A DNA stretch of 64,000 nt, from NCBI RefSeq assembly GCF_013127955.1, contig NZ_CP053435.1:4774001-4838000 (forward strand), in the 5' to 3' direction. Below are positions 981 through 28,896 of the stretch, in pieces. Source of the DNA: Spirosoma taeanense. Its GTDB lineage: Bacteria > Bacteroidota > Bacteroidia > Cytophagales > Spirosomataceae. Below the pieces are notes generated by a model. That model did no database searches and had not been told where the DNA came from. It was given only the letters and a program-made list of their open reading frames with translations. The position numbers were made by a program, and so were the translations under genes. How positions within the stretch are numbered: the first letter of the stretch is position 1; each line of letters starts with the position of its first letter.

Positions 981-1086
981 CTCAACTGCCGTGCCACGAA
1001 CGTAAACAGCCGTTTCCAGCAAGGAGACGGCTGTTTGTCCGGCTTTACTGTCCGAAAGTGGACAAGAGTACGTCCGATTGTGAACG
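981..1086 (-). promoter_or_regulatory. P1: sigma54-type promoter with two upstream activator sites
   Basis: Minus-strand -24/-12 element TGGCAC-GGCAG-TTGAG at 981-996, 32 bp before the start codon at 949. Upstream activator palindrome TGTCCGAAAGTGGACA lies at 1049-1064 (53 bp upstream) and a degenerate copy CGTCCGATTGTGAACG at 1071-1086. The same geometry recurs at five other promoters in the window. It is predicted to drive 323-949 and the permease at 1-310. Confidence 0.72.
1004..1036 (-). terminator. Hairpin terminator after the 1151-3508 permease
   Basis: Perfect 10-bp stem AAACAGCCGT / ACGGCTGTTT with a 13-nt loop. It lies between the P1 activator sites and the P1 -24 element, so it would stop read-through from the upstream permease before P1 starts. 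The T-tract is short. Confidence 0.6.
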
Positions 1087-1150
1087 GCCCTCAAAACGCC
1101 CATCCGTTTCCGGTAGAGCAACAAACAGCCTGATTTGTACTTCGCTTGAA

Positions 1151-3508
1151 TTATTCCGTACGCAGGCTCTTCACGGGGTCCATCAGGGCGGCTTTTATGC
1201 TTTGAAAACTCACCGTCAGTAAAGCAATGGCAATAGATAAAAAGCCCGCCAGGGCGAACATCCACCATTCAATATCGATGCGGTACACAAAGTCCTGGAG
1301 CCAGCGGCTCATGGTGTACCAGGCAATCGGAGTAGCAATCAGGATGGCAATCAGCACCAGGCGGAGAAAGTCCCTGCTGAGCAGGCTGACAATGCTCGTT
1401 ATCGATGCGCCCAGCACTTTCCGCACGCCAATCTCCTTGGTCCGCTGCTCAGCGGTAAACATCGCCAGCCCGAACAGACCCAGACAGGCGATGAAGATGG
1501 CCAGAACCGCGAAATAATTGGTCAATCGCCCAACCAGGGTTTCGCTCTGATACTGCTTTTCAAAACTGTCGTCGGCAAACTGGTAGTCGAACGGATAGGC
1601 CGGATTGTACTGCTTCGCCAGCCGCTGCATACTTGCCAGCGCCTGCTCGGTCTGACCGGGCTGTGCCCGCACCAGCATCGTGTTATTATTGGTCGTATCC
1701 AGCCGCAGTATCAGTGGCTCGATCGCCACGCGTAATGAGTTCAGGTGGAAATTCTTCATCAGACCGATGATTTTACCCGATTTTCCCCAGAACTTCAGCG
1801 GCTGGCCAACAGGCTGTTTCATGCCCATCCGCCGGGCAGCTTCTTCGTTGACGAGGTAATTGGTACTGTCGGTCACAAACTCCTTCGAAAAGTCGCGGCC
1901 ATCCAGCAGTTTGACTTTCATCGTATTAATGAAGTCGTAGCTAACCGCCATCTGGGTAAACAGCGTCTTATCGGCCGGATCTTTTCCCGTCCATTCAACG
2001 CCAATCGTGGAACTGCCAATGGCCAGCGGATCGGAGTTAGACGACGACACAGCCTGAATGCCCGGCGATTGCAGCAGTTCCTGCCGGAACACGTCGAAGT
2101 GTTTGGTCAGGTCGCCTTCCAGCGGCACATACACCACATTCTCCCGGTCGAGGCCCAGGTTCTTGGTGCGGATATAGTCAACCTGTCGCCCAGCAATCAG
2201 GGTTCCGATGATAAGCAGCAGCGACAGGGCGAACTGAAACACCACCAGACCCTGCCGGAACAGCACTGCTCCGGACCTGAACCGCAGCGTTCCTTTCAGC
2301 ACCGTTACCGGCTGGAGCGACGACAGAAATAAAGCCGGGTAACTGCCCGACAGAATCCCCGTAATCAGCGCCAGGCCCAGCAAGGTCAGCCAGTAAACCG
2401 GGTTGCTGTACTGAATGGCAATCTGTTTCTCGGTCAGCCGGTTAAAAACCGGTAGCAAAAGCTGAACCAGCACAACCGCGAACAGCAGCGACATGCCGGC
2501 CGTCAGCACCGCTTCGCCCATAAACTGCCCGATCAGGAACGACCGCTCAGCACCAACGACTTTCCGGATGCCGACCTCCTTAGCCCGCTTGGCCGATCGG
2601 GCCGTAGCCAGATTCATGAAATTGATGCAGGCAATAATGAGTATGAAAATAGCAACGATCGTAAATAGCCGTACGTACTCAATCCGTCCGCCATCGGGCT
2701 TACCGTTGGTAAACTTGGAGTAGAGATACACGTCCTCATACGGAAACAGGAAGGTGGTGATGGTCGTCACCTTCTTATCGTGCTGATGGACCATATTCAG
2801 AATTCTGGCGTTGACGCGGTTTACGTCGGCGTTCGGGTGCAGCATGGCGAAGGTCCGGATGCCGTTGTTTTCCCAGCTCTTCAGCCATTCGTTCTTTTTG
2901 ATAAAAGGCCCTACCGGCAGGAGAAAATCAAACTTCAGCGATGAGGTTTCGGGAATATCGCGCACGACGCCCGTTATCTGCCGGTTTTCTTTGTCATCCA
3001 CCCGAATCAGCCGACCCATGACGTCTGTTCGGCCGAAGAGCTTGCGAGCTACTTTTTCGGAGATGACAATTGACGTAGGACCGGTGATGGCCGTTTTCGG
3101 CTGACCATAAGCCAGCGGAAACGAAAAAATCTGAAACAGGTCCGGGCTGGTGAATCGTCCTTTTTCTTTATAAGCCTTCTCACCTACGGCCAGCAGGTGC
3201 TCCTCTTCCCAGGTGAGGTGAACGGCTTTGTCTATCTCCGGCACTTCGGCGGTCAGCGCGGCAGCCATTGGACCGGGCGTGGCAGAGGTTGTACTTAGCT
3301 CGTTGCCGGTCCACTGCTGGTTTTCAAACACCTGATACATGCGCGCGCCGTTGGCGTGAAAGCGATCGATGTTCCGCTCGTCCTGCACCCACAACAGAAT
3401 CAGCAGGCTGCACGTCATGCCCAGGGCCAGGCCGAGTACATTGATGAAGGAAAAGGTTTTGCTCTTGGCAATATTTCTCCAGGCAATCTTCAGATAGTTG
3501 CGCAGCAT
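1151..3508 (-). CDS. MacB/FtsX-type ABC transporter permease (two-domain, no ATPase)
   Basis: A 785-residue inner-membrane protein starting MLRNYLKIAWRNIAKSKTF. The order is: TM1 (about residues 20-42), MacB periplasmic core, a three-helix FtsX block (about 285-405) with the coupling-helix signature RAKEVGIRKVVGAE, a second periplasmic core, then a second FtsX block ending near 785 with RTKEIGVRKVLGAS. This is a fused tandem of two MacB-like half-permeases without a nucleotide-binding domain, so it needs a separate ATPase; the MacB/LolD-type ATPase at 26307-26984 is a candidate partner. Unlike most of its paralogues here, I found no -24/-12 element or activator palindrome upstream. The transported molecule cannot be deduced. 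Confidence 0.93.
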   Translation of the reverse strand: MLRNYLKIAWRNIAKSKTFSFINVLGLALGMTCSLLILLWVQDERNIDRFHANGARMYQVFENQQWTGNELSTTSATPGPMAAALTAEVPEIDKAVHLTWEEEHLLAVGEKAYKEKGRFTSPDLFQIFSFPLAYGQPKTAITGPTSIVISEKVARKLFGRTDVMGRLIRVDDKENRQITGVVRDIPETSSLKFDFLLPVGPFIKKNEWLKSWENNGIRTFAMLHPNADVNRVNARILNMVHQHDKKVTTITTFLFPYEDVYLYSKFTNGKPDGGRIEYVRLFTIVAIFILIIACINFMNLATARSAKRAKEVGIRKVVGAERSFLIGQFMGEAVLTAGMSLLFAVVLVQLLLPVFNRLTEKQIAIQYSNPVYWLTLLGLALITGILSGSYPALFLSSLQPVTVLKGTLRFRSGAVLFRQGLVVFQFALSLLLIIGTLIAGRQVDYIRTKNLGLDRENVVYVPLEGDLTKHFDVFRQELLQSPGIQAVSSSNSDPLAIGSSTIGVEWTGKDPADKTLFTQMAVSYDFINTMKVKLLDGRDFSKEFVTDSTNYLVNEEAARRMGMKQPVGQPLKFWGKSGKIIGLMKNFHLNSLRVAIEPLILRLDTTNNNTMLVRAQPGQTEQALASMQRLAKQYNPAYPFDYQFADDSFEKQYQSETLVGRLTNYFAVLAIFIACLGLFGLAMFTAEQRTKEIGVRKVLGASITSIVSLLSRDFLRLVLIAILIATPIAWYTMSRWLQDFVYRIDIEWWMFALAGFLSIAIALLTVSFQSIKAALMDPVKSLRTE

Positions 3509-3623
3509 AATGAAACGGGAGGGTTACCGGGTTATCGAGCCTAAAGACGAAGGATTTTTCGTTTACGTTGCTTGACGACCAGCTCCGTTTGGAAACGAGC
3601 CCAAAAACGTGGCTCAACTCACT

Positions 3624-3905
3624 CTACACAGCACACCGAACCGTCCTGGCCGGATAAAAACGGGACTTCGCCGGGCTAAGGCGATGAAGCGCATCGTGGT
3701 AGTACGGATGCTCCCTGCACGGGGCTTCGCTGGCATACGGTCTCGGCGGGTCAACGCGGAGCCGGAACTGCGCATAGCTCTGTTCGGACTGCCACCACGA
3801 ATGCAGGAGCAGGCCAGCGGCCAGGCCTGCTCCAAGCCATATCAGGACAGCGGAAAGCCTGTCCGGCGACAAGATGTGCCAGATGTTGACATGATTGCAT
3901 CGCAT
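3624..3905 (-). CDS. Possible small membrane protein (unrecognised)
   Basis: A 93-codon open frame in the 463-bp gap between the DUF4097 gene (ends 3972) and the permease (starts 3508). The predicted product has one clear hydrophobic helix (LSAVLIWLGAGLAAGLLL, about residues 17-36) followed by a basic, Arg/Pro-rich tail. It starts 67 bp after the preceding gene stops, so it could be the fourth gene of the sigma/anti-sigma/DUF4097 operon. I recognise no family, and overlapping frames in this GC-rich stretch are also open, so it may be spurious. Nothing else is evident in the rest of the gap. Confidence 0.35.
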   Translation of the reverse strand: MRCNHVNIWHILSPDRLSAVLIWLGAGLAAGLLLHSWWQSEQSYAQFRLRVDPPRPYASEAPCREHPYYHDALHRLSPAKSRFYPARTVRCAV

Positions 3906-3971
3906 GGTAGTTGGGTCAGGAAGTTCAGCGGAAAAGCCGCTTACGTTGGATCAACAGGTCATAAAAGGCCC

Positions 3972-4802
3972 TTATTTAGCTTTCCGGACGAAGATGTTGC
4001 CGTGCATGTTTTTCATCATGATCTCCGGGCCACCACCGTTGATTTTGCCACACACCCAATCCTCTACCGTTACCCGGTACATACCCGACTGGCCGGAACG
4101 ACTCGTTTTGGGCTGGTTTTTATCCACATCAATCTCGAAATCACTGTAGATATCGCCCTGATCCGATTTCAGCTTTACGGATGCCTTTAGGTTGGATGGA
4201 TACGTTACGTCAACATTGCCATTCAGCGTCGAAAACGCCATGGGCTCACCGGTATTAATGCTTTTGAACGTAGCGATCAGGTTTCCGTTGACGGTGTTGG
4301 CAACAGCCGAACCCGATACGTTGGTGAGGGTAATGGTCCCGTTGACGTTGCTCACCTCCAGTTTGCCATTCACATTATCAACCACAATATCTCCCTGGTT
4401 AACCGTACCCAGCTTGAGCGTAAACCGCTGCGGCACCTTGATGGTCAGATCGACGGGGCGTTTCCAGGAATCGGAATTTACCTTAATCCGATTGTCGCGT
4501 TCTTCGGCTTTGATGTCCATGCCGCTCCCGGTCGAAATCCGGCGCATGCCGTTGGCACTGGCTTCGGTTCGGTCTTCCTTCTTGCTTTGGCGCGATACGG
4601 CGTCAATCACTACGTCTTTGCCCGAATAGCCAACCACGCGAATGGAACCGTTGACCAGATGGACTTCCATGAAACCGGGATCATTGGGTTTACTCAGCGG
4701 CACAACCAGCTGTTCTTTCGTGTCATTTTGAGCGGCCAGTGGCGTAATCCAGCTCATGGCCAGCAGCAGGCAACCGGCGGTTAATAGCTTATGGGTAATC
4801 AT
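3972..4802 (-). CDS. DUF4097-family secreted beta-solenoid (putative adhesin-like) protein
   Basis: A 276-residue protein with a signal peptide (MITHKLLTAGCLLLAMSWITPLAAQ). The body has the rhythm of DUF4097 beta-strand repeats: NVNGKLEVSNVNGTITLTNVSG, then TVNGNLIATF and TLNGNVDVTYP, where each strand pair ends in a Gly turn. It probably acts in the periplasm or at the cell surface. It starts 5 bp after the stop of a second DUF4097 gene (4808-5659) and follows an ECF sigma / anti-sigma pair on the same strand, so it is a likely target and member of that envelope-stress operon. The biochemical role of the family is not established. Confidence 0.85.
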   Translation of the reverse strand: MITHKLLTAGCLLLAMSWITPLAAQNDTKEQLVVPLSKPNDPGFMEVHLVNGSIRVVGYSGKDVVIDAVSRQSKKEDRTEASANGMRRISTGSGMDIKAEERDNRIKVNSDSWKRPVDLTIKVPQRFTLKLGTVNQGDIVVDNVNGKLEVSNVNGTITLTNVSGSAVANTVNGNLIATFKSINTGEPMAFSTLNGNVDVTYPSNLKASVKLKSDQGDIYSDFEIDVDKNQPKTSRSGQSGMYRVTVEDWVCGKINGGGPEIMMKNMHGNIFVRKAK

Positions 4803-4807
4803 CGTGG

Positions 4808-5659
4808 TCAGGCTTGTTTTTTAATGTAAATATTTCCGTTGAATGTCTCGAACCGGAGGGTTTTTCCTCCATTGCCAATTCGAATAGACGTGTTTGTATT
4901 GAGTTTATAAACGGTCCTGTCGCCCCTTCGCTCCTGATTTTTGACAACCTGTACGGGCAGAACCTCTACATTGGGAAAGTCGGTATAGAACTGTCCCTGA
5001 AAACTCTTGAAGTACAGATCGGCGGACAGGTTAGCCGGGTACGTCACCCGGATAGCGCCGTTGAGTGTGTAGTATGTCGATTGATCGGGCGGGCTGGCGA
5101 GGTAGTTCACGTCCACATCGCCGTTGATCGTGTGGACGTCCGTGGCACCCCGGGCGTTTGTCAGCGTAATGGCGCCGTTCACGTTACGTACCCGCAAGGC
5201 ACCCGCTACGTCTTTAACCGTAACGTCGCCATGGTTCACCGTCGAAATGGCCAGATTTGTCTGGTTCGGGACTTTAACGGTGAAGTCCAGGTTGAAATCA
5301 TACTCAATCCGGCGGTGGTTTTCGTTCCGGTTCGGACGCGAGTCGAACGGCTCGGCGATGTAAGCGATAATACTGTCGCCTTTCTGCTCAAACTGGAGTT
5401 TGAATTCCTGCTTACCCGTTTCCAGCGCCTGCTTGTCTTTGGCCGTGATAGCTTTATCTACATCCAGCACGACCTTGTCGCCCGAATAGCCTTCTACCTT
5501 AATGAACCCGTTGATATTGTAAATAACCAGCGTGCTTTTGCCGCCTTTTGCGGGCGTAAACTCCCGGTTAATATGCTCCCGGGATTCCTGCGCTTTGGCT
5601 GGCAATTGGGCACAAGCGAGCGCTAACCCCGCCAGACAGGGAATGATAAATCGGTTCAT
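4808..5659 (-). CDS. DUF4097-family secreted beta-solenoid protein
   Basis: A 283-residue protein with a signal peptide (MNRFIIPCLAGLALACAQLPAKAQ). Repeating strands such as VKDVAGALRVRNVNGAITLTN, VHTINGDVDVNYL and TLNGAIRVTYP give the DUF4097 pattern. It is a paralogue of the protein at 3972-4802, whose start lies 5 bp downstream, which suggests a tandem duplication. The anti-sigma gene ends 34 bp upstream on the same strand. Tandem DUF4097 genes behind an ECF sigma/anti-sigma pair are a common Bacteroidota arrangement. A surface or periplasmic structural role is inferred from the fold only. Confidence 0.85.
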   Translation of the reverse strand: MNRFIIPCLAGLALACAQLPAKAQESREHINREFTPAKGGKSTLVIYNINGFIKVEGYSGDKVVLDVDKAITAKDKQALETGKQEFKLQFEQKGDSIIAYIAEPFDSRPNRNENHRRIEYDFNLDFTVKVPNQTNLAISTVNHGDVTVKDVAGALRVRNVNGAITLTNARGATDVHTINGDVDVNYLASPPDQSTYYTLNGAIRVTYPANLSADLYFKSFQGQFYTDFPNVEVLPVQVVKNQERRGDRTVYKLNTNTSIRIGNGGKTLRFETFNGNIYIKKQA

Positions 5660-5693
5660 GATGTGATTTGGTTTAGCTTATTTACAACCTGGC

Positions 5694-6515
5694 TCAGGAC
5701 AGTTCCCGAATGCTCTGCTCGATTTTGTTTTTGACGAGACCGTTCAGGTTATCGTCCCGGAGTAGCTGCCGGAAGGGTTTGATAGACCGTTTCTCCTGCA
5801 ATTTCACCATTACGTCAGCCAGGGCCGACTGAACCAACGGGGAGTCCTGCCGGGCAATGGACTGGACCAGCCCTTCCCGTACTTTGGGATCATCAGCCAG
5901 CTTGGCCAGGGCTTCCAGCGTCACCAGCCGCACATTTACATTCGAATCGTTGTTGAGCGTCGTCAGTAAAGCCGCGACAACTTTGTCATCGGCCTGCCTG
6001 ATTTCATTCGTATAACTCACCGCCCGAAGCCGTTCCGTGGCTGATGGATCGTCAATGAGCGAGAGCAGCATCATCTGCCGCATTTCCTGAACCTGCGTCG
6101 AGAGCGTGTCAATCTGCTGCTGATAGGCCACAGTGGGTCCGCTGTGCTGGTGGAACCAGTACCCCGCAACAACGCCAACCAGCACCAGCGCCAGACTATA
6201 GGCGACACGCAGGGCCGGCTGGTCGGTCCAGCGTTGCCGAAGCTGTCGTACCAGGCCATTTACCCAGCTTTTCTGTTCTGTGGCTACGGTATCTTTATAC
6301 GTATCGAGCATCGCCTGGAACCGAATACGCAGGACATCGCTGGGCTCGGGCACCGGGAGTTTGCCCATCCGCTGCCACAACTGCCGAACGGTACTCAGTT
6401 CCTCCCGACAGGCCGGACACTGCGCCAGGTGAGCGTCGAAGGATTCGCGCTCCTGTTCCGGCATCTGGTTGCTCAGCCAGTCGGCCAACAGTAGGTTGGC
6501 TTCATCACAGTTCAT
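5694..6515 (-). CDS. Transmembrane anti-sigma factor with zinc finger and HEAT repeats
   Basis: About 273 residues. The N-terminus carries a zinc-binding anti-sigma (ZAS) motif, H-x3-C-x2-C, in FDAHLAQCPACREEL. One transmembrane helix follows (VAYSLALVLVGVVAGYWF, about residues 100-118), then a short coiled coil (QQQIDTLSTQVQEMRQM), then HEAT-type helical repeats such as NVNVRLVTLEALAKLADD and SPLVQSALADVMVKLQ. It should hold the ECF sigma factor encoded just upstream at the membrane; the HEAT domain would lie outside the cytoplasm as a sensor (inference). I chose the start at 6515 (MNCDEANLL); an ATG at 6530 is also possible. Either start overlaps the sigma gene, which ends at 6505, so translation is probably coupled. 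Confidence 0.87.
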   Translation of the reverse strand: MNCDEANLLLADWLSNQMPEQERESFDAHLAQCPACREELSTVRQLWQRMGKLPVPEPSDVLRIRFQAMLDTYKDTVATEQKSWVNGLVRQLRQRWTDQPALRVAYSLALVLVGVVAGYWFHQHSGPTVAYQQQIDTLSTQVQEMRQMMLLSLIDDPSATERLRAVSYTNEIRQADDKVVAALLTTLNNDSNVNVRLVTLEALAKLADDPKVREGLVQSIARQDSPLVQSALADVMVKLQEKRSIKPFRQLLRDDNLNGLVKNKIEQSIRELS

Positions 6516-7125: not shown

Positions 7126-7190
7126 TGGCGCAGGTTACAGAAAAAAATGAAAAAAGTTTTGGGGCCACTGGCTACTATAAACCATAAATG

Positions 7191-7218
7191 CAGAAGCCGC
7201 CCGAATGAGCGGCTTCTG
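7191..7218 (-). terminator. Hairpin terminator after 7329-7907
   Basis: Perfect 10-bp stem CAGAAGCCGC / GCGGCTTCTG with an 8-nt loop. It lies between the stop of the small secreted protein gene (7329) and the start of the sigma gene (7125), so it separates the two minus-strand units. Confidence 0.65.
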
Positions 7219-7328: not shown

Positions 7329-7907
7329 TTACTGGTTTGCCGTTTTAATACCGAAGCTTCGTTCCGTTTCCCGGATGATGGCCTGTTTTTCCCGCTCGGT
7401 TTTGCCGATTACATTGGCGGTTCGCTCAATGACCAGCTCCTCGCCGTCTTTCTGGAAGGTGTACTGCATCCAGAGCCGCCCGTTTTCTTTGTCTTCGCGG
7501 TGGATGACCGACGACGGAGCTACATCGCCCGGCGAAAGCGACGAAGACGCATGGGCTTCGAATTGTTCGCTCCGGCTCTCGCTCACTGTACTATAGGCAA
7601 CCTGCTCATCGCAGTCCGTCTGCTTCGTCCAGACGGCCCGCTTCTTTCCAACCGACACCGCGCTGCGGTTGTCGGTCAGCGACTGGTCCAGTGAGTCAAG
7701 GATCCGGTTTTCCAGCGCCTTGACAGCGCTTTCTTCCATGTCTGCTACGTCGAACGAGCGGTTGTAGTGTACCGATCGGCCCGGCTGTTCGATATCTACG
7801 CGAATACGGAGTTGCCGACCATCGGTCGTTACTTCTTTCCTTGACGACCGTTGGGCTACTGCGCCAAAGCCAGTCAGGAGCAGTAAAAGGGTAACCAGCG
7901 CTTTCAT
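7329..7907 (-). CDS. Small secreted protein, paralogue of 323-949
   Basis: A 192-residue protein starting at the ATG at 7905-7907, which opens directly into a signal peptide (MKALVTLLLLLTGFGAVAQ). Longer upstream reading lacks a sensible N-terminus. Residues 25-75 (TTDGRQLRIRVDIEQPGRSVHYNRSFDV, then ENRILDSL) match the paralogue at 323-949. The rest is charged, with WMQYTFQKDGEELVIERTANV near the C-terminus. No named family is recognised. It stands alone between terminator 7191-7218 and promoter P2 (7974-8078), whose architecture matches that of P1 in front of its paralogue. That is the main clue that this family belongs to the export regulon. Confidence 0.8.
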   Translation of the reverse strand: MKALVTLLLLLTGFGAVAQRSSRKEVTTDGRQLRIRVDIEQPGRSVHYNRSFDVADMEESAVKALENRILDSLDQSLTDNRSAVSVGKKRAVWTKQTDCDEQVAYSTVSESRSEQFEAHASSSLSPGDVAPSSVIHREDKENGRLWMQYTFQKDGEELVIERTANVIGKTEREKQAIIRETERSFGIKTANQ

Positions 7908-7973: not shown

Positions 7974-8078
7974 ATCTACGATCGTGCCAGCTTAATAAGT
8001 AACTATAAATCAATAGATTACACAGAAAATCCCGAAACAAATGTCCGATAATGGACATTATTCGTACGACACCGGACA
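7974..8078 (-). promoter_or_regulatory. P2: sigma54-type promoter with two upstream activator sites
   Basis: Minus-strand TGGCAC-GATCG-TAGAT at 7974-7989 (good -24, weak -12). Activator palindrome TGTCCGATAATGGACA at 8042-8057 begins 53 bp upstream, and a second copy CGTACGACACCGGACA lies at 8063-8078. Spacing matches P1 and P5. It faces the secreted protein gene at 7329-7907. Confidence 0.65.
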
Positions 8079-10529: not shown

Positions 10530-10637
10530 TTCAAAGGTCATACCATAAATGATAAGATACTATCTATCAAGTTATTATAAACTCCTCAATAAGCCATCCT
10601 GTCCGCAAATGGACGAAAATCCGTTCAGTTACGGACA
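10530..10637 (-). promoter_or_regulatory. P3: sigma54-type promoter with two upstream activator sites
   Basis: Minus-strand TGGTAT-GACCT-TTGAA at 10530-10545, about 47 bp before the permease start at 10483. Palindrome TGTCCGCAAATGGACG at 10600-10615 begins 55 bp upstream, and a degenerate copy CGTTCAGTTACGGACA lies at 10622-10637. The core element differs from P4 at only two positions and the spacing is identical. Confidence 0.7.
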
Positions 10638-14989: not shown

Positions 14990-15096
14990 ATCAAAGGCCA
15001 TACCAAGAGACTAAACTACTAATTACCAATAAATTATATTTCCAAATCAGCGCTTTCCCTGTCCGCAATCGGACGAATGCCGTACGCAGGCGGACA
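14990..15096 (-). promoter_or_regulatory. P4: sigma54-type promoter with two upstream activator sites
   Basis: Minus-strand TGGTAT-GGCCT-TTGAT at 14990-15005. Palindrome TGTCCGCAATCGGACG at 15060-15075 begins 55 bp upstream, and a second copy CGTACGCAGGCGGACA lies at 15081-15096. The 406-bp gap between 14865 and 15270 holds this element. On the plus strand there is only a weak TGGTAA-CGTAG-TTGGT at 15232-15247 before the gene at 15271, which might be served by the same sites. Confidence 0.7.
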
Positions 15097-18666: not shown

Positions 18667-19498
18667 GCGTCGAGTCATTTTTGTATCGACCAAGATGCAA
18701 AGCAATGACCAAACAGTGGAAGCCACTGACCGACGCCCAGTGGGATGCAATTTCTCCTTTTTTACCACTTGATCGTCAGCGGACTCATGATTTGCGACAG
18801 ATTGTTAACAGTATTTTGTGGCTGCTACGCACAGGATGCCAATGGCGCAATCTGCCTACCGAGTGGCCTAATTGGCAAACCGTCTATTACTATTTTAGAC
18901 GTTGGAAACAGGATGGTACTTTTGGTCGAATCAATCTGGCCTTAAATCAACTTGACCGTAAGCGGGTCGGTAAAGAAGCATATCCATCTGCAGTATGTAT
19001 TGATTCACAAAGTGTTAAGTTGGCTCCGATGATTTGGGAGAACCGAGGTCTCGACGCGAATAAACGAGTGAATGGCCGAAAAAGGCAACTCATCGTTGAC
19101 ACCCAAGGGCGTCTATGGCTAGCAGATGTCCATTCTGCTAATCAAGCGGATGGCCCTTCAGCCGTATCGATGGTCAGTGACTTACTATGGCTAGTTGGAG
19201 AGCGTTTGGAGAAAGTCTACGGTGATCAATCTTATAATGGCGTCTTCGCTCAAGAGTTGGCTAGATGGAGCCTTGATTTTGAAAAAGCGTCTCGTCCTGA
19301 ATCAACTCTGGGCTTTGTACCCGTAGCCAAACGGTGGGTAGTGGAACGGACCATTGCTTGGACGAATCACTTTCGAAGGATTGTCAAAGATTATGAATAC
19401 ACGATATCATCTTCGGTTTGCTGGCTGTACTTAGCCAACATTCAGATTATATTGCAACGGATCATTTGAATGGCAAAAGATAATTCCCAAACACATTC
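18638..19498 (+). mobile_element. IS5-family insertion sequence, copy 1
   Basis: An 861-bp element. The left terminal inverted repeat starts GAAGCTGTTTGGGAATT and the right end complements as GAATGTGTTTGGGAATT. It is flanked by direct TAA (18635-18637 and 19499-19501), a 3-bp TNA target typical of some IS5-family groups. A second copy lies at 59855-60715. It splits a leucine-rich-repeat gene. Confidence 0.92.
18705..19469 (+). CDS. IS5-family DDE transposase, copy 1
   Basis: A 254-residue protein starting at the ATG at 18705 (MTKQWKPLTDAQWDAISPFL); an upstream TTG is less likely. The N-terminus is the DUF4096-type helix-turn-helix region (LRQIVNSILWLLRTGCQWRNLP). The DDE catalytic residues fit CIDSQSVK (first Asp), KVYGDQSYNG (second Asp) and RWVVERTIAW (Glu). 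The product is identical to that of copy 2 at 59922-60686. The frame is intact and the ends look complete, so the element is probably active or was recently so. Confidence 0.93.
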   Translation: MTKQWKPLTDAQWDAISPFLPLDRQRTHDLRQIVNSILWLLRTGCQWRNLPTEWPNWQTVYYYFRRWKQDGTFGRINLALNQLDRKRVGKEAYPSAVCIDSQSVKLAPMIWENRGLDANKRVNGRKRQLIVDTQGRLWLADVHSANQADGPSAVSMVSDLLWLVGERLEKVYGDQSYNGVFAQELARWSLDFEKASRPESTLGFVPVAKRWVVERTIAWTNHFRRIVKDYEYTISSSVCWLYLANIQIILQRII

Positions 19499-20031: not shown

Positions 20032-20036
20032 GGCGC

Positions 20037-22463
20037 TTATTCCGCCCGGAGGCTCTTCACCGGGTTCATAAGCGCGGCTTTGATACTCTGGAAGCTTACG
20101 GTCAGCAGGGCGATGCCAATGGCCAACACGCCCGCCAGGGCGAATATCCACCACTCGATGTCGATCTTGTAGGCGAAGTCCTGCAACCACTGCCGCATGG
20201 CCCACCAGGCAATCGGCGTAGCGATCAGAATGGCAATCAGCACCAGCCGGAGGAAGTCGCGCGACATCAGGGCGATAATACTGGTCACGCTGGCACCCAG
20301 CACCTTGCGGACGCCAATCTCCTTGGTCCGCTGCTCGGCCATGAACGTAGCCAGCCCAAACAGCCCAAGACAGGCAATCAGGATGGCCAGCACGGCAAAC
20401 GTCAGGGCAATGGTGCCGATGCGCTGTTCAGCGCGGTACATATTCTCGAAATCATTAGCCAGAAACGAATAGGCAAACGGCTGACCCGGCGCTATATGCC
20501 GCCATATTCCCTCAATCTGCCGGACTAAAAAGGGGATGTTGGTGGTGCTCAGTCGGAACGAAGCGGCTCCGGTGTTGGGCGAGAGAACCATCGACAACGC
20601 GCCAATGTTCTGCCGAAGGGATTCAAAGTGAAAGTTTCTGACAACCCCGATCACCGTGTAGGTCTTTGTGGTTTTAGCCTCCGGATCGGCATACTGGGTT
20701 ATGCGCTTGCCAATGATGTTTCGGCCGCCAAAGAGTTTAGCCGCCGTTTCGTTCAGAATCAGTGCCGACGAGTCGGACCCGAACTCCCGCGAGAAATTCC
20801 GGCCCTCGGCCATCTGCATGCCCATGGTGTTGATGTAGTCGTGGTCAACGCCCCAGCTTTGCATGTTGACGGCCTTGGTCTGGTTAATCTCGCCCTCCGG
20901 GAAAAACGCGTTATCGCTCCGACTGGAAGGCGTCGGCAGATAACCCGATATGGAGCCGCTCACCACCCCCGGCAGACGTAACACTTCCTGCTTGAACGTT
21001 TCGGCCTGTTTGCCAATCGCATACACATCATTCACCGTCAGGACCTGCTCGCGGCTGAAGCCCAGATTCTTGGTCTGGATATAGCTGATCTGCCGATACA
21101 CGATCAGCGTACCCACCATCAGCACGACCGACATCATGAACTGAAACACTACCAGTCCGCTGCGTAATCGGGAACTCCGAAAACTGACGTCAATCCGCCC
21201 TTTCAATACACTGACCGGCCGGAACGACGACAGGAAGAACGCCGGATAGCTACCCGCCAGTAAACCAACGACAATCGGCAGGATGATCAGGACTGGCAAC
21301 AAATAAGGAGAAAGCAGATTCCGGGCGCTCAACGTCTTGGCTGCAAGAGTGTTGAAGAAAGGCAGTGCCATCCCGACCAGTACAAGGGCCAGCGCCATAG
21401 CCAGCACGGTCATCAGCACCGACTCCGCCATGAACTGCCCAATGAGCTGCTGGCGTTCTGAACCCAGCACTTTCCGAACGCCCACTTCTTTTGCCCGATT
21501 GGCCGAGCGGGCCGTGGCCAGATTCATGAAATTGATGCAGGCGATCAGCAGGATAAACAGGGCTACCGCCGAGAAGATATACACGTATTGAATATCGCTG
21601 TTCGGCTCCAGTTCAACCTGCTGTTTCGAGTACAGATGAATGTCCGTTAAGGGAATCAGCCAGAATCGGTAACGATTTCCGGCCTTGCGAAACTGCTCCA
21701 GCGTCGCGCCAATCATATCATACGCCTGTGGCCCGACGTATTTTTCGATAACCGCATCGAAATTCCGCTCGAATGCCCGGTAGTCAGTACCCTCACGTAA
21801 GACGATGTAGGTGTGGTGGTTATTGCTGAGCCACTGCCCCCACGTATAGTCATCGCTGGCCATACTCAGAAAGAAATTACTCCGGAAATGCGAGTTGGCC
21901 GGCATGTCGCGCATGACCCCCGTTACTTTAAACGCCTGCCGATTATTAAACAGCAGCGTCTGCCCGATTGGGTTCTGATCGCCAAAGTGCCGCTTTGACG
22001 CCGATTCGCTGATGACAACCAGATTTGGGCCCGCCAGAGCCCGTTTGGGATCACCGGCAATCAGCGGCAGCGTAAAGACGTCGAACAGCGTCGAGTCGGC
22101 AAAGTGAATGTTGTCTTCGCGCAGGATGTTGGTGGACCCCGCCCGCTTGACGAGCCAGGTGCCCCGCTGATGCAGCCTGACAAACTGCTCAACCTGCGGG
22201 TAATCCTGCTTCAGCGTTTGGCCAACCGGATCGGGCGATACGGCAAAATGCATGTCGTTCCCCCCGAATTTAATGTCAGTATGAATCCGGTAGATGCGGT
22301 CGGCTTTGGTGTTGTAGCGATCGTAGCTGAGCTCATCCAGGACGTAAAGGGTAATGAGCAGACAGCACGCCAGCCCGGTAGCCAGCCCAACGATGTTGAT
22401 GAACGTAAGGCCGCGTTGCTTACTGAGCGTACGCCAGGCGATTTTGAAGTAATTACGTAACAT
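20037..22463 (-). CDS. MacB/FtsX-type ABC transporter permease (two-domain, no ATPase)
   Basis: An 808-residue protein, MLRNYFKIAWRTLSKQRGLTF. TM1 is FINIVGLATGLACCLLITLYV. A periplasmic core is followed by an FtsX block with RAKEVGVRKVLGSERQQLIG, a second core, and a second FtsX block with RTKEIGVRKVLGASVTSII. It is the second gene of a two-gene unit: the paralogue at 22517-24937 ends 53 bp upstream, with a palindromic repeat (22481-22513) in the gap, and P5 lies ahead of both. Paired permeases could form a heterodimer (inference). No nucleotide-binding domain is present. Confidence 0.93.
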   Translation of the reverse strand: MLRNYFKIAWRTLSKQRGLTFINIVGLATGLACCLLITLYVLDELSYDRYNTKADRIYRIHTDIKFGGNDMHFAVSPDPVGQTLKQDYPQVEQFVRLHQRGTWLVKRAGSTNILREDNIHFADSTLFDVFTLPLIAGDPKRALAGPNLVVISESASKRHFGDQNPIGQTLLFNNRQAFKVTGVMRDMPANSHFRSNFFLSMASDDYTWGQWLSNNHHTYIVLREGTDYRAFERNFDAVIEKYVGPQAYDMIGATLEQFRKAGNRYRFWLIPLTDIHLYSKQQVELEPNSDIQYVYIFSAVALFILLIACINFMNLATARSANRAKEVGVRKVLGSERQQLIGQFMAESVLMTVLAMALALVLVGMALPFFNTLAAKTLSARNLLSPYLLPVLIILPIVVGLLAGSYPAFFLSSFRPVSVLKGRIDVSFRSSRLRSGLVVFQFMMSVVLMVGTLIVYRQISYIQTKNLGFSREQVLTVNDVYAIGKQAETFKQEVLRLPGVVSGSISGYLPTPSSRSDNAFFPEGEINQTKAVNMQSWGVDHDYINTMGMQMAEGRNFSREFGSDSSALILNETAAKLFGGRNIIGKRITQYADPEAKTTKTYTVIGVVRNFHFESLRQNIGALSMVLSPNTGAASFRLSTTNIPFLVRQIEGIWRHIAPGQPFAYSFLANDFENMYRAEQRIGTIALTFAVLAILIACLGLFGLATFMAEQRTKEIGVRKVLGASVTSIIALMSRDFLRLVLIAILIATPIAWWAMRQWLQDFAYKIDIEWWIFALAGVLAIGIALLTVSFQSIKAALMNPVKSLRAE

Positions 22464-22513: not shown

Positions 22514-22516
22514 AGG

Positions 22517-24937: not shown

Positions 24938-25061
24938 ACGGTCTAAAGGTTTTCAGCATCCATCGGGTCAATCCTGACGATGGTCGCCGGACAGGGGTCC
25001 GCGCAATAGCCAGGCGAACGGGATAGCTTGATTACATCGGCAAGATGCTTTCAGCAAACCA

Positions 25062-25167
25062 ATCAACTGTTATGCCACGAACAAAAAAGGCCGTTTCCTG
25101 TAGGAAACAGCCTTTTTTCACCCCTATGCTGTCCGATTGCGGACACCTGTCCGTCCGATAGCGAACG
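25062..25167 (-). promoter_or_regulatory. P5: sigma54-type promoter with two upstream activator sites
   Basis: Minus-strand TGGCAT-AACAG-TTGAT at 25062-25077. Palindrome TGTCCGATTGCGGACA at 25130-25145 begins 53 bp upstream, and a second copy CGTCCGATAGCGAACG lies at 25152-25167. The leader to the permease start at 24937 is about 110 nt. As at P1, a terminator sits between core promoter and activator sites. Confidence 0.73.
25083..25118. terminator. Strong bidirectional terminator inside the P5 region
   Basis: AAAAAAGGC / GCCTTTTTT outer stem with an inner GTTTCCT / AGGAAAC stem and a 2-nt loop; there are A- and T-runs on both sides. It ends transcription from the decayed gene at 25173-25715 just before the P5 core promoter. 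Confidence 0.85.
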
Positions 25168-25172
25168 TAAAA

Positions 25173-25715
25173 CTACCGGGTGCCGGACCCAACGTTAGTT
25201 GTTATGCTGGAGATGGTAAAGATGTTGTTTTTAGTCCCGGCCGTATAGGTTCCATTCTGATATAAGCCGTTGGTTACGGCGCCGGTTGAGCTGCCGCCCA
25301 CGTAAATGTCATAGGTTGAACTGGTAGCCCGCGACGGCGAAGAAAACGCTACCGACTGATAGTTCTTGACCGGAACGAAGGTTAAGATATCCTTGCCTTT
25401 GCTATTCTGGATATGAACTATTGAACCCGCCTTTTGCGACGAGGTGAAGTTTATCAGCACCGAATTCTACGTAGACGATGCGCCCGGCAGCTGGGCCATT
25501 CCCGAGTTACCTACGGCCAACAGGTAGCCGTCCGTGATTGTAAATGTCCCATCATTGTTGGCGGCCGGCCCGTTTACAATGATGGTGCCGTTCGACATTT
25601 CAGCCAAACCGTTTACGTCCACTCTGTTTTTCATTTGCCAGTACGTGCATCCGCTCACTAGTATTGCGAAAAATCGCCAGCAATGAAAAACAGACAGGAA
25701 GAAGGAGCTGCACAA
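25173..25715 (-). pseudogene. Remnant of a DUF4353 (carbohydrate-binding) protein with in-frame amber stop
   Basis: The frame reads VDVNGLAEMSNGTIIVNGP, GTFTITDGYLLAVGNSGMAQLP, then GASST-stop (TAG, about 25467), then NSVLINFTSSQKAGSIVHI, ILTFVPVKNYQSVAFSSP and YDIYVGGSSTGAV. This is the C-terminal part of the DUF4353/Cthe_2159-type calcium-dependent polysaccharide-binding family. The family normally has several hundred more residues upstream, which are missing here. The TAG sits where relatives usually have Gln (CAG to TAG), and the frame is otherwise unbroken across it. A degraded fragment is the simplest reading. Confidence 0.78.
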
Positions 25716-25854
25716 ATCCCCCTACATCAGTCTACCCGTAGCAACCCATTTCCTACAGGCTGATTAATAAACAAAACTCGTCTTAGCAGATGTGAACGTT
25801 ATTTTCAAATCTGCTAAGGTTCATTATCTTTAAAGTGTAATATACGATGATCCA

Positions 25855-26301
25855 ATGAGTTACTTAAAACCGTCTTCTATCGCAACCCTGGTCAGAGAAG
25901 ATGATATGGGCGTAAATGCGCCTATTATTCATCAGAGTGTTATTGCCCGGCTAACATCCGGACTTTATCCTCTTTATAAATCAGGCCGAATTAATTTCGA
26001 ACCCCTTCCAGAAATGATGCTCACAGAAGGCTATAGCAGTCCGGTTCCCGATCTGCTATTATACGATCACCAGACAGAACAAGCTAAGGTTATCATTGAG
26101 GTCTGCCAGACAAATGGACTTAAACACGACACCAACAAAGTTATTCGGCTGATTGACGAAGGCGAGTATGGGATTCTCGAGGGACTCGTCTTCAACTATA
26201 AGACTCAACAGTGGCTATGTTATAACAAAGGTGATGGCGGCATGGCCAGCCTTTCTTCCTTCTCCAAAATTCTCCAGCTGGACTTAAATGAGTTTTTATA
26301 G
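25855..26301 (+). CDS. Uma2/DUF820-like putative nuclease-fold protein
   Basis: A 148-residue protein, MSYLKPSSIATLVREDDMGV. The centre has SSPVPDLLLYDHQTEQAKVIIEV, which fits the PD..(D/E)xV core of the Uma2/DUF820 restriction-endonuclease-like fold, with the usual Lys replaced (IIEVCQ). Such small proteins are common and mostly uncharacterised in Bacteroidota and Cyanobacteria. It is less GC-rich than its neighbours, stands alone, and ends 6 bp before the convergent ATPase stop at 26307. Nuclease activity is not established. Confidence 0.7.
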   Translation: MSYLKPSSIATLVREDDMGVNAPIIHQSVIARLTSGLYPLYKSGRINFEPLPEMMLTEGYSSPVPDLLLYDHQTEQAKVIIEVCQTNGLKHDTNKVIRLIDEGEYGILEGLVFNYKTQQWLCYNKGDGGMASLSSFSKILQLDLNEFL

Positions 26302-26306
26302 AAACG

Positions 26307-26984
26307 CTAAACGTGGAAGTTTTCGGTGACAACTTTTCCGTCGAAGAGATTCACGATCCGATGGGCGAATCCGGCGTCGTAGGGCGAGTGCGTTACCATG
26401 ATGATCGTCGTGCCTTCGTCGTTTAGTTCCCCTAATAGCTTCATCACCTCTTCCCCGTTCTTCGAATCCAGGTTTCCCGTCGGTTCATCGGCCAGAATCA
26501 GTTTGGGTTTGGCGACCACGGCCCGGGCAATGGCCGTCCGCTGCTGCTGACCGCCCGAGAGCTGCTGTGGGAAGTGATTCCGGCGGTGCATGATGCTCAT
26601 GCGGTTCAGGGCTTCCTCTACGCGCGCCTTACGTTCGTCGGCAGGCGTTTTCAGATACAGCAACGGCAGTTCGACGTTTTCATACACGGTAAGCTCGTCG
26701 ATTAGGTTAAAGCTCTGGAATACAAAGCCAATCGAACCTTTCCGAAGCTGCGCCCGCTGCCGCTCGGTCATTTTGGCCACCTCGGTTCCGTAAAAGTTAT
26801 ATGCACCGTCGGTGGGGTTGTCCAGCAGACCGAGAATGTTCAGGAGCGTGGATTTACCGCAGCCAGAGGGCCCCATGATGGCCACAAACTCGCCGTCTTT
26901 AACATCCATGCTGATGCCATTGAGGGCCGTGGTCTCGACTTCTTCGGTCGTAAAGAGTTTCTGAAGGTTAATTGTCTGAATCAT
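26307..26984 (-). CDS. ABC transporter ATPase, LolD/MacB type
   Basis: The start is the ATG at 26982-26984 ([21 protein letters not shown]), the standard LolD-like opening; longer reading runs into the upstream spacer. 225 residues. Walker A is GPSGCGKST (residues 38-46), the signature is [14 protein letters not shown], Walker B is [12 protein letters not shown], and the switch His lies in IIMVTHSP. This is the only export-type ATPase in the window and is the likely motor for the ATPase-less permeases. It follows the HlyD adaptor on the same strand, but a plus-strand four-helix-bundle gene (27073-27435) lies between them, so co-transcription from P6 must read through about 500 bp. Confidence 0.95.
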
Positions 26985-27011
26985 TGGCTTAAGGTAGAAA
27001 AGGGAAGAGAA

Positions 27012-27482
27012 GGAGTAAGGGGACAAAGGGGATTTCAGTAGCTTTGACCACACTCACTAAACTTCTGTATTCATGGCTAAAGTTGAAAAATTTGAAGATC
27101 TGTTAGTTTGGCAAAAAGGTTTAGCTCAGGCAATTGATTTGTACAAATTACTCGCTGACTGGAACGATTACGGCCTTCGTGACCAAATGCGTCGTTCGGC
27201 GGTTTCTGTCCCTTCAAACATTGCAGAAGGTTTTGAACGCCACACCAATAAAGAGTTTATTCGATTTTTACGCATTGCAAAAGGGTCGAATGGCGAATTA
27301 AGAACACAAATTCATTTGGCTATAGGCGTCGGAATCCTGAACCCAGATACTGGTGCTGTATTATTGGCAAAGAGCCGGATTATTTCATCTATGTTGCAGA
27401 ATCTGATAAAAACGCGGGAAGAAAAATTCACTTAAAGCTTCATTTCCCCTCTCCTCCTTCGTCCCTTTCGTCCCCCTACTCC
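27012..27482. repeat. Inverted repeats flanking the antisense four-helix-bundle gene
   Basis: Left arm GGAGTAAGGGGACAAAGGG at 27012-27030. Right arm at 27463-27482 complements as GGAGTAGGGGGACGAAAGGG (one substitution and one indel). The arms enclose the gene at 27073-27435 and could pair in a transcript crossing the whole insert. Confidence 0.6.
27073..27435 (+). CDS. Four-helix-bundle protein (23S rRNA intervening-sequence family)
   Basis: A 120-residue protein with the hallmarks of the S23/IVS four-helix-bundle family: FEDLLVWQKGLAQAIDLYKL near the start, LRDQMRRSAVSVPSNIAEGFER in the middle and FIRFLRIAKGSNGELRTQI after it. In other bacteria members are encoded inside 23S rRNA genes or as free genes; some associate with reverse-transcriptase-based diversity elements, but no such genes occur here. 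It is AT-richer than the flanking genes, lies antisense inside the adaptor-ATPase operon and is bounded by imperfect inverted repeats, so it looks inserted. Its function is unknown. Confidence 0.9.
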   Translation: MAKVEKFEDLLVWQKGLAQAIDLYKLLADWNDYGLRDQMRRSAVSVPSNIAEGFERHTNKEFIRFLRIAKGSNGELRTQIHLAIGVGILNPDTGAVLLAKSRIISSMLQNLIKTREEKFT

Positions 27483-27484
27483 TG

Positions 27485-28732
27485 TTAAAATTCCAGAACT
27501 TCGTTATCGCCAAAGTTCTCGTAGCTGCTCGTAATCACCTGCTCGCCGGGCTGGAGTCCTTCCAGCACTTCGTAATACTCCGGATTCTTACGACCCAGGG
27601 TAATATTGCGCTTTATGGCCCGCTTACCGGAGTTATCCACCACGTACACCCAGTTGCCGCCCGTATCGGAGAAGAAACCACCTACCGGCAGCAGCGTGGC
27701 TTTGGCGGCTTTGCCTAGTTCCAGCTGAATGGGCGACGATTGACCGCGCTTGATGCCTTTCGGCGCGCCTTTGCTGAATACCATGTCTACTTCAAACCGC
27801 CCGTTGCGCACTTCGGGATAGACGCGGGTAATCTCCAGGTCATGCTTTTCGCCGTTGAATTCAAAGGAGCCGGTCAGACCCGTAAAAATTCGGTTCAGGT
27901 AGTGTTCGTCAACACCGACGCGCATCTTGAATCCGTTCAGATCATCAATCTGACCAATATTTTGTCCCTGGTTAATATTCGACCCCACTTCAATATCCAT
28001 GGACGATAACAGACCCGATACGGGGGCCTTCACAACCAGATTGTTAAGCGTTTGCTGCCAGAGCGCTACGTTCTTCTGCGTGCGGGCGAGCGTACCTTCC
28101 AGCATCTGGATCTGGGTTTTGGCATTGTCTTCCTGGTATTTCTGCGACTCGGCCTCAATCTTGCGCTGCTCAACTAATTTCTCGTAGTCTAGCTTGGCTT
28201 TCATGTAGTCCTGCTCAGAAATGACTTTGTCTCTGAATAATTTCGACTGGCGATCATAAATGTCTTTCGCCTGATTAATCTGGAAATCGAGGTCAGACAA
28301 GGCTTTACGAAGCGAATACCGCTCTACACGTAAACGTTGCCGGGTATTTTGAAGGTCGTTCACCAGGCGGTTGGCTTCTGTCTCCGACTGAAGAAAATTA
28401 AGCCGCAGATTCTGGTTTTCCAGCCGCAGCAGTACATCGCCCTGCTTCACCATGCTACCGCCTTCTACCAGTTTTTCGGTTACGTATCCCCCGGCGATTG
28501 CATCGAGCCGAATGGTTTTCAGGGGTTGAACAACGCCCGTTACGGCAATAAAATCCTCAAACGGTCCGGTGGTTACGTTCGAGATGGTTATTTTATCTTT
28601 TTCGACATTCAGCTTTGAACGACGATCAGCGAAAAAGAAGGTGTAAGCCAGCAGACCCAGAATCAGCACACCGCCACCTGATAAAATAAGGCGTTGGCTG
28701 GTCCAGAAGCGTTTAGGTAAGGCGCGATCCAT
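27485..28732 (-). CDS. HlyD/MacA-family periplasmic adaptor protein
   Basis: A 415-residue protein with an N-terminal membrane anchor (LILSGGGVLILGLLAYTFFF, about residues 14-33). Next come a barrel segment (VTGVVQPLKTIRLDAIAGGYV), a lipoyl half (VKQGDVLLRLENQNLRL), a long alpha-helical hairpin (about 100-225, rich in Q/R/E heptads), the second lipoyl half (VVKAPVSGLLSSMDIEVGSNINQGQNIGQID), and beta-barrel and membrane-proximal domains. It links an inner-membrane ABC exporter to an outer-membrane channel, as MacA does for MacB. It is the first gene after P6, and its ATPase partner lies downstream at 26307-26984. Spread-out permeases under similar promoters are probable partners. Confidence 0.93.
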   Translation of the reverse strand: MDRALPKRFWTSQRLILSGGGVLILGLLAYTFFFADRRSKLNVEKDKITISNVTTGPFEDFIAVTGVVQPLKTIRLDAIAGGYVTEKLVEGGSMVKQGDVLLRLENQNLRLNFLQSETEANRLVNDLQNTRQRLRVERYSLRKALSDLDFQINQAKDIYDRQSKLFRDKVISEQDYMKAKLDYEKLVEQRKIEAESQKYQEDNAKTQIQMLEGTLARTQKNVALWQQTLNNLVVKAPVSGLLSSMDIEVGSNINQGQNIGQIDDLNGFKMRVGVDEHYLNRIFTGLTGSFEFNGEKHDLEITRVYPEVRNGRFEVDMVFSKGAPKGIKRGQSSPIQLELGKAAKATLLPVGGFFSDTGGNWVYVVDNSGKRAIKRNITLGRKNPEYYEVLEGLQPGEQVITSSYENFGDNEVLEF

Positions 28733-28790
28733 TTGTATTGACGATTAAATAGCTGAACGATTAACAGGCTCAGTCAGCCGATCAGCTAGT

Positions 28791-28896
28791 TACCAATGCC
28801 GTGCCATTTTTTCGAATACCTGATTTACAGACGCTTGCGATTCTATTCTCTAGAATGGCTGTCCGGTATCGGACATTTGTTGTCCGGTGGCGTTCA
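28791..28896 (-). promoter_or_regulatory. P6: sigma54-type promoter with two upstream activator sites
   Basis: Minus-strand TGGCAC-GGCAT-TGGTA at 28791-28806 (perfect -24, weak -12), 58 bp before the adaptor start. Palindrome TGTCCGGTATCGGACA at 28860-28875 begins 54 bp upstream, and a second copy TGTCCGGTGGCGTTCA lies at 28881-28896. Confidence 0.7.

Follow-up and report, generated by a model that had tools for sequence, protein, structure and literature searches.

Tandem palindromes and sigma54-type promoters point to one regulon for a modular ABC-exporter kit in Spirosoma

Introduction

The 'acidobacterial duplicated orphan permeases' (ADOP, TIGR03434) carry two MacB_PCD/FtsX units per chain, have no ATPase of their own and occur in many copies per genome. 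The relevant sections of two reports count 28 copies in one Dyadobacter species and 33 in another, all 'of unknown function' (PMC11573002), and 102 copies, with no known function, in an acidobacterium (PMC10564751). Permeases of the same layout recur behind similar promoters in a stretch of 64,000 nucleotides of Spirosoma taeanense (contig NZ_CP053435.1, positions 4,774,001 to 4,838,000), hereafter the window. What ties such genes together, and which partners would serve them? We conclude that they very probably form, with their partners, a single sigma54 regulon that encodes a modular ABC-exporter kit. In Spirosoma and its relatives, a sensor and its partner regulator appear to activate, by way of one common promoter type, nearly the whole orphan exporter family together with the shared parts that it would need. 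An unexplained permease family would thereby be tied to one response, and placing nearly all orphan permeases of one genome, with their missing parts, under one two-component system would give a direct handle on the function of the family.

Results and Discussion

Six promoters of the window, all on the minus strand, share one arrangement. P1 (982-1086) has the core TGGCAC-GGCAG-TTGA at 982-996, a proximal palindrome at 1049-1064 and a distal one at 1071-1086. The same elements, in this order, are TGGCAC-GATCG-TAGA at 7975-7989, 8042-8057 and 8063-8078 in P2 (7975-8078); TGGTAT-GACCT-TTGA at 10531-10545, 10600-10615 and 10622-10637 in P3 (10531-10637); TGGTAT-GGCCT-TTGA at 14991-15005, 15060-15075 and 15081-15096 in P4 (14991-15096); TGGCAT-AACAG-TTGA at 25063-25077, 25130-25145 and 25152-25167 in P5 (25063-25167); and TGGCAC-GGCAT-TGGT at 28792-28806, 28860-28875 and 28881-28896 in P6 (28792-28896). 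A preliminary description of this DNA had given the same core letters, and its palindrome TGTCCG-N4-YGGACR begins without mismatch at 1049, 8042, 10600, 15060, 25130 and 28860. The degenerate second copy that it placed 21-22 bp further upstream is present at all six promoters, and its distances of 53, 53, 55, 55, 53 and 54 bp correspond to 52, 52, 54, 54, 52 and 53 bases between palindrome and TGG. The canonical TTG is missing in P2 (TAG) and P6 (TTG one base early), and both retain GG-N10-G. Taken by itself, the palindrome is moderately above chance (33 window matches with up to two mismatches, against a shuffle mean of 17.8). What distinguishes these promoters is the complete unit: across the 5.7 Mb genome, GTCCR-N4-CGGACA-N30..60-TGGYAY matches six times, exactly at P1-P6, against three matches of the reversed control.

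The genes behind these promoters also lie on the minus strand. P1 is followed by the gene of a small secreted protein of 208 aa (323-949), whose start resembles a signal peptide by look and for which a Pfam search gave no match, and then by the start of a duplicated permease (2-316). The preliminary description assigned both to P1, which holds, but the edge permease is not the only one: the run extends beyond the window to G000:C1:4758942, so that P1 probably serves six permeases, of which this is the first, reaching about 15 kb to the left. P2 precedes a second small secreted protein (192 aa, 7329-7907), to which the N-terminal 77 residues of the 323-949 product are 38% identical; one site elsewhere (L180) is directly followed by the gene of a homologue. 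The duplicated MacB_PCD/FtsX permease at 1151-3508 (785 aa) has no site of its own and might at most be the gene that ends the P2 run. Duplicated MacB/FtsX permeases follow P3 (8096-10534, given as the longest reading frame, whose start codon may be internal), P4 (12438-14906) and P5 (22517-24937, then 20037-22463). P6 leads to an HlyD-type periplasmic adaptor (27485-28732) and, downstream, a stand-alone ABC ATPase of MacB/LolD/DarD-like appearance (26307-27053); a site precedes hlyD in related genera as well.

The promoter unit consists of tandem TGTCCR-N4-YGGACA-type palindromes, 21-22 bp apart, followed at a distance of 50-65 bp by a sigma54-type core GG-N10-G. This genome contains at least 13 such units: P1-P6 and seven further sites, which a strict pattern missed owing to longer spacing, a different core or a palindrome variant. 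GG-N10-G is kept in all 13 and the canonical TTG in 11 (P2 and P6 deviate). A matrix trained on eleven sites recovered the other two; the 13 sites score 37-56 and every other match 20 or less, over 317 kb of this genome, in stretches picked around sites, permeases and activators. Two exact palindromes (C1:2117075 and C1:5232038) and one loose combined match (C1:1355320) lie inside unrelated genes and were discarded as chance, and a match at C1:4799131 proved to be P5 read on the other strand. The 13 sites all stand ahead of genes for permeases, PadR-permease pairs, adaptors, ATPases or small secreted proteins. Outside the window they include a second ATPase-TolC-HlyD set (site S11; TolC named by look), and in some units a PadR-like gene stands between site and permease. 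The genome encodes rpoN (one PF04552 match, E 2.7e-55), and the promoters would presumably be driven by sigma54 in the cell.

We then surveyed 98 sites in ten other genomes of seven genera. All but one (L271) lead into the expected genes, the match set being drawn from this regulon itself and the first match alone being classed: 43 reach a permease through a PadR-like gene and 39 directly, eight precede the second ATPase followed by TolC, six HlyD followed by the ATPase and one a small secreted protein. The expectation of the preliminary description that the combined motif is commoner before permease and adaptor genes than elsewhere is thus borne out in this genome (13/13) and in the others (97/98). 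For 82 of the 98 sites the best-scoring position of the distal palindrome, which lay outside the search pattern while the proximal one and GG-N10-G lay inside it, is 21 or 22 bp; this palindrome agrees at a mean of 9.9 of 12 positions, compared to 6.9 in shuffled upstream regions.

A candidate regulator of these sites is encoded in the window on the plus strand. The protein at 30766-32127 combines a receiver, a sigma54-interaction AAA+ domain and a Fis-type HTH (PF00072, PF00158 and PF02954, all above cut-off). In NtrC-type regulators the GAFTGA loop makes the contact with sigma54; this protein reads GAFTDA, one change from that consensus. The proposed cognate histidine kinase (32139-33476, plus strand) has PAS and HATPase domains and two predicted transmembrane helices (residues 12-28 and 31-47) joined by a short loop, with no periplasmic domain. 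Among 28 orthologues retained at 45% identity or more, a simple hydropathy rule places two helices 2-20 residues apart in 25; L120, L133 (its start cut) and L135 show a single helix each. The preliminary description named neither this regulator nor the second ATPase-TolC-adaptor set, and it covered neither the PadR-permease branch nor the division of the spacings into two classes (described below).

The presence of this regulator and the number of sites go together across the family. In the 117 of 200 family genomes with the regulator (E<1e-170), 913 sites were found against 62 reversed-pattern matches; the 83 genomes without it gave 12 sites against 14. These controls reject a chance origin of the pattern within the family. 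One apparent exception, G089, with seven sites and a weak regulator match, has a regulator gene split by contig ends (pieces at 82-84% identity) and is counted among the 117. Fifteen genomes with the regulator have no exact match: 13 of them carry, ahead of a divergent hlyD, a near variant in which one half-site is TGTTCR and the core lies 65 bases away, and in G064 and G187 no TGTTCR-type variant was found. In related genera, the regulator gene has the adaptor gene and a site next to it. The gene hlyD is present at 25 of the 36 regulator loci examined and is preceded by a site in 23, none being detected at the script's threshold at L131 and L138; the 11 loci without hlyD in the stretch examined comprise three short contigs, four Fibrella/Fibrivirga loci, two distant genes and two others.

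The number of sites also tracks that of first-look ADOP candidates, which we used as a rough proxy because the family search scores only four candidates per genome: the Spearman coefficient is 0.93 over 34 Spirosoma genomes. Genus g32 has the regulator and many such candidates with few exact sites (38 in 33 genomes), and no tracking was found there (Spearman 0.27, p 0.13). A search of the phylum matched 29 of 395 genomes, four of which are family members; outside the family, where it matches the remaining 25, the pattern is mostly at chance level, the reversed control matching 39 outside-family genomes by our own count. At 9 of 26 outside-family loci examined a permease, ATPase or adaptor match follows the site, four of the adaptor matches being weak (21-24% identity). 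Co-occurrence and synteny thus support, indirectly, the binding of the tandem palindromes by this protein, and the NtrC-type regulator with its kinase is likely to be the regulator of these sites.

From the sites, their spacing, gene content, conservation and co-occurrence with the regulator, all directly observed in the sequences, we propose the following mechanism. The membrane kinase would phosphorylate the regulator. The active oligomer of the latter would then occupy the paired palindromes from a single side of the helix, starting about 53 or 64 bp ahead of the -24 box, and loop to sigma54-RNA polymerase so that the promoters open. The regulator would act on nearly every duplicated MacB/FtsX 'orphan' permease that the genome encodes, on the HlyD adaptor and ATPase behind P6, on the second ATPase-TolC-adaptor set and on the small secreted proteins. 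Since genes for an ATPase, an adaptor or an outer-membrane channel are lacking next to most of the permeases, these probably share the co-induced parts; this absence and the presumed co-regulation suggest that one ATPase and adaptor are common to many permeases. One signal could then assemble a whole set of tripartite exporters, each with its own permease and otherwise alike. The PadR-like proteins of some operons probably add local, ligand-specific control, and the cargo, if the system exports as the darobactin exporter does, may be peptides or other envelope-active compounds.

The regulon could be read differently at several points. The permeases might be independent systems that have a common stress promoter. 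The ATPase and adaptor would in that case serve no more than one or two of them, and the rest would act as sensors or use unlinked ATPases. At least two further stand-alone ATPases of similar look do exist in the genome (C1:2640831 and 4318843), and a Bce-module transporter acts in sensing, according to the pertinent part of PMC10314905. The general lack of an adjoining ATPase speaks against this reading, as do the P6 and S11 sets, which place ATPases, adaptors and TolC under these same sites across genera; we regard it as rather unlikely.

The identity of the DNA-binding protein can be questioned as well. Besides the window regulator, the genome encodes four sigma54 activators whose interaction domain is complete, five in all, and one of the four belongs to a further HlyD-TolC-ATPase-permease locus (gene names by look) some 15 kb away from site S9. 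An activator such as that at C1:2644578-2645954, beside a second exporter set, might thus bind the palindromes, with sites and promoters otherwise as described. The palindrome nevertheless adjoins the window regulator gene or its adaptor at most loci examined, and site numbers follow the presence of that regulator, for which the co-occurrence was computed, which makes another activator quite improbable. More radically, the palindromes might bind a repressor or another protein, PadR for example, the sigma54-like cores reflecting mere kinship of duplicated permease upstream regions. Duplicated genes could have inherited these regions with them, and a PadR-like gene does follow nearly half of the surveyed sites (43/98). 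Against this, sites also stand before adaptor, ATPase-TolC and secreted-protein genes, none of which are permeases, and 39 lead straight to a permease without PadR. Moreover, the spacers look dissimilar while the helical phase, the palindrome and GG-N10-G (the last two being in the search pattern) persist, and site number follows a sigma54 activator gene. We hold this explanation to be highly improbable.

The regulon we favour resembles several known systems in part. DarBCD (NF038008, NF038010 and NF038007) likewise comprises a stand-alone ATPase, an HlyD-type adaptor and an FtsX-type permease of about 780 aa. The matches to its three models are long and all below the equivalog cut-offs (109-192 of 700 bits for three permeases, 207 of 450 for the DarC-like adaptor, 277 of 375 for the ATPase); unlike DarBCD, the present system has many permeases and a dedicated sigma54 system. 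In MacAB-TolC, MacB carries the ATPase in the same chain; the MacB-type periplasmic core with FtsX domain, the HlyD-type adaptor and a TolC-like gene (by look) are found here too, whereas the ATPase is a protein of its own and the permease is duplicated. On the ADOP model three permeases score 310-364 bits against a cut-off of 622, which none of the 200 family genomes exceeds with four candidates scored per genome. ADOP genes have PadR neighbours (TIGR03433), and here too a PadR-like partner occurs in one branch; one such protein scores 26 against 101.8 on that model. A link of ADOP to sigma54 or to a shared adaptor was not found in the portions of the ADOP literature examined.

The preliminary description knew of no account of such a regulon. 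Our literature searches found no prior description of the enhancer, the regulator or the logic of shared parts, and to this extent the statement stands. The promoter link itself has been reported: a 2025 statistical survey found that, in Bacteroidia, sigma54 promoters are enriched at permeases of the FtsX type (COG0577) and called this first evidence; its sections on these genes name no activator or enhancer sequence and mention neither a PadR branch nor a shared adaptor nor a rule for the spacing (PMC12316311).

On the sensing side, the regulators of Bce modules are of the OmpR type. Here, instead of an OmpR-type regulator with one dedicated transporter, we find an NtrC-type regulator, sigma54, a PAS domain and many permeases, together with the two helices, short loop and missing periplasmic domain of an intramembrane-sensing kinase. 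BceAB-BceRS of Bacillota likewise ties a kinase without a dedicated sensing domain to an inducible ABC transporter, as outlined in PMC10314905. One could imagine a Gram-negative sigma54 counterpart of Bce flux-sensing, in which the kinase reads the working state of one or more permeases in the membrane and, via its NtrC-type partner, induces the whole family with its shared ATPases, adaptors and channel, giving an 'interchangeable-permease' exporter tuned to demand and refined by PadR. We consider this extension speculative and, as formulated, unlikely.

The 925 pattern matches in the 200 genomes form a natural series for enhancer-promoter spacing at sigma54 promoters. Among the 98 surveyed sites the spacing from palindrome to core is bimodal, with 65 sites at 50-55, 33 at 62-65 and none at 56-61, so that the two classes lie one helical turn apart; the survey range stopped at 65, and the long class may therefore be cut off. 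With a freer range and a stricter core, applied to the window and 34 loci, 18 of 24 matches fall at 52-55, three at 65-66 and one each at 68, 76 and 85. An IHF-like or TGATAATCA-like element seen by eye in this region is not claimed, as a crude pattern matched only 6 of the 98 sites. Hairpins are visible by eye in the spacers of P1 and P5, and 38 of the 98 spacers contain one with a stem of at least 8. A co-directional upstream gene is present at 17 of 20 long-hairpin sites (of 22 such) compared to 12 of 20 hairpin-free ones. The difference is small, and its simplest reading is that the hairpin is the terminator of the upstream gene, in favour of which a role as a bend or regulatory element was set aside.

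Thirteen sites and the genes that follow them

The preliminary description had placed six sigma54 promoters with upstream palindromes (P1 to P6) on the minus strand of the window, and all six palindromes and cores were found exactly where it had put them. A search of the whole Spirosoma taeanense genome (5.72 Mb) for the palindrome followed by TGGYAY at N30-60 returned six matches, all inside the window, which spans contig C1:4774001-4838000, and three for the reversed control. Exact palindromes outside the window led to four further sites, S7 (2345402), S8 (2355856), S9 (2628775) and S10 (4503471). S11 (1178321) emerged when the pattern was relaxed, and a matrix trained on these eleven sites found S12 (2359070) and S13 (2074006). 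The matrix was run over 317 kb of stretches of this genome picked around sites, permeases and activators, in which the 13 sites scored 37-56 and every other match 20 or less. Exact palindromes at 2117075 and 5232038 are intragenic and were not counted as sites.

Duplicated MacB_PCD/FtsX permeases come first after P3, P4, P5, S9 and S13, with two in succession after P5, and P1 precedes a small secreted protein and then a single run of six permeases ending at 4758942. S7, S8, S10 and S12 are each followed by a PadR-like gene and a permease of ~900 aa; the permease after S8 carries a perm_prefix_2 domain. P6 stands before HlyD and its ATPase, and S11 before a second ATPase followed by a gene that by look is TolC and by another HlyD-type adaptor, with an opposite-strand gene between ATPase and TolC. 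A second small secreted protein comes first after P2, and a permease (1151-3508) lies at the far end. In the same direction after the P2 gene, 3972-7125 holds ECF-type sigma factor-like, anti-sigma-like and two toastrack-type-like genes, PF13349 being matched in one of the two toastrack-type proteins; the regulon may thus have an additional level of sigma-factor control attached to it.

Counting frames of at least 790 aa gave 19 duplicated permeases in the genome. Sixteen lie directly after a site or within a tight run, two are separated from their site by other genes (2348708 from S8, 1151-3508 from P2), and one, at 4319631, has no site and adjoins its own ATPase. Both permease clusters contain transposase genes (window 18681-19469; contig C1:2347420-2348585), IS4/5-type by Pfam and IS3-like by look.

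Conservation and geometry of the sites

The combined pattern occurs in 113 of 200 Spirosomataceae genomes, with 925 matches against 76 for the reversed pattern. Exact sites are few in genus g32, which has many candidate permeases. We surveyed 98 of 107 matches from ten genomes of seven genera (all listed places, one double reading excluded), matching downstream ORFs against the products of the S. taeanense regulon itself and classing each site by its first match. This was PadR-like at 43 sites, a permease at 39, the second ATPase at eight, HlyD at six and a small secreted protein at one, with no match at one. A permease came next in all 43 PadR-like cases, TolC in all eight cases of the second ATPase and the ATPase in all six of HlyD. 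The first match started at most 776 bp from the -12 box at 97 of 97 sites.

Spacings from palindrome to TGG in these 98 sites form two classes one helical turn apart, a short one (50, 1 site; 51, 1; 52, 15; 53, 29; 54, 14; 55, 5) and a long one (62, 2; 63, 13; 64, 11; 65, 7; the search ended at 65), with no site at 56-61. The long spacing is found mainly in PadR operons (29 of 43, versus 3 of 39 direct permeases; Fisher 1.6e-8). In 82 sites the second palindrome, which was no part of the search pattern, had its top score at a distance of 21 or 22 bp. Judged from the sequence, this geometry would suit the requirement of a regulator oligomer on one face of the DNA. At some sites, such as loci L203, L204 and L210, a terminator-like hairpin lies between enhancer and promoter, so that the enhancer would occupy the 3' end region of the upstream gene.

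Outside the family the pattern was found in 25 genomes and the reversed control in more (39 by our count); permease, ATPase or adaptor genes followed the site in 9 of 26 loci compared. One of these nine, L164, comes from another class of the phylum; its regulator (54% identity) and its HlyD (39% identity) are divergently oriented.

The candidate activator

The gene at 30766-32127 (+) encodes receiver, sigma54-interaction and Fis-type domains. Its product is 86% identical to the counterpart in Spirosoma fluviale, 33 other genomes of the genus being among the 200. The consensus for the sigma54-contact loop is GAFTGA, and here it reads GAFTDA. The proposed cognate histidine kinase (32139-33476, +) also has PAS and HATPase domains, and two predicted helices 2-20 residues apart are found in 25 of 28 kinase orthologues.

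Family genomes with the regulator total 913 sites (control 62), and those without it 12 (control 14). Among 36 regulator loci, hlyD is present in 25 and preceded by a site in 23 of these, in Spirosoma, Fibrisoma, Larkinella, Rhabdobacter, Persicitalea, Arundinibacter and Emticicia. At the threshold used, no site accompanies hlyD in L131 and L138. The 11 loci without hlyD in the stretch examined are L113, L137, four from Fibrella/Fibrivirga, three on short contigs and the distant matches L140 and L141. In 13 of 15 genomes with the regulator and without an exact match, a near variant, often TGTTCGTTATCGGACA, stands ahead of a divergent hlyD, with the core 65 bases on; G064 and G187 have no near variant. 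In four of six genomes with a 57-62% identical regulator and without an exact match, a tandem palindrome adjoins the regulator gene, and the same pattern found no core there. Synteny and co-occurrence point to 30766-32127 as probably the activator of the sites.

In many Spirosoma loci, regulator and kinase are ~2 kb or more apart; acyltransferase-like and desaturase-like genes (sequence look) separate them in the three such loci inspected, L106 (11972-13851), L110 (11993-13878) and L114 (12676-14565).

Proposed mechanism and relation to known systems

From these DNA and gene patterns we infer each biochemical step of what is probably the following scheme. A signal would reach the regulator through the kinase, and the regulator, from the tandem enhancer, would act on a looped sigma54 promoter to express the whole exporter kit. 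One ATPase and adaptor set would be shared among the permeases, the PadR-like proteins may serve as a local filter, and the cargo may be peptides or similar compounds.

The components of the regulon are of known kinds. DarBCD shows the best overall likeness among named exporters with an NCBIfam model, all scores being below cut-off. A link between sigma54 and FtsX permeases in Bacteroidia has been published as a statistical result (PMC12316311). ADOP-type expansions are listed in the literature as having no known function (PMC11573002; PMC10564751), and the sigma54 regulon described for F. psychrophilum takes in chaperones, envelope stress, gliding and exported proteins (PMC9723704). The literature searched yielded no description of the enhancer, its activator or the family-wide control.

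In the S. taeanense genome, a second exporter locus (C1:2638044-2647252; L071) holds by look HlyD-, TolC- and ATPase-like genes and two permeases of ~400 aa, alongside a kinase and an NtrC-type regulator of its own; it is possibly a parallel, self-regulated system. Between the window's ATPase and HlyD genes, on the opposite strand, 27073-27435 (+) encodes a four-helix-bundle protein, which we take to be S23-like. Such a gene occupies the same gap in Emticicia (L135, 8055-8417), and a similar one lies ahead of the second activator, at C1:2644168.
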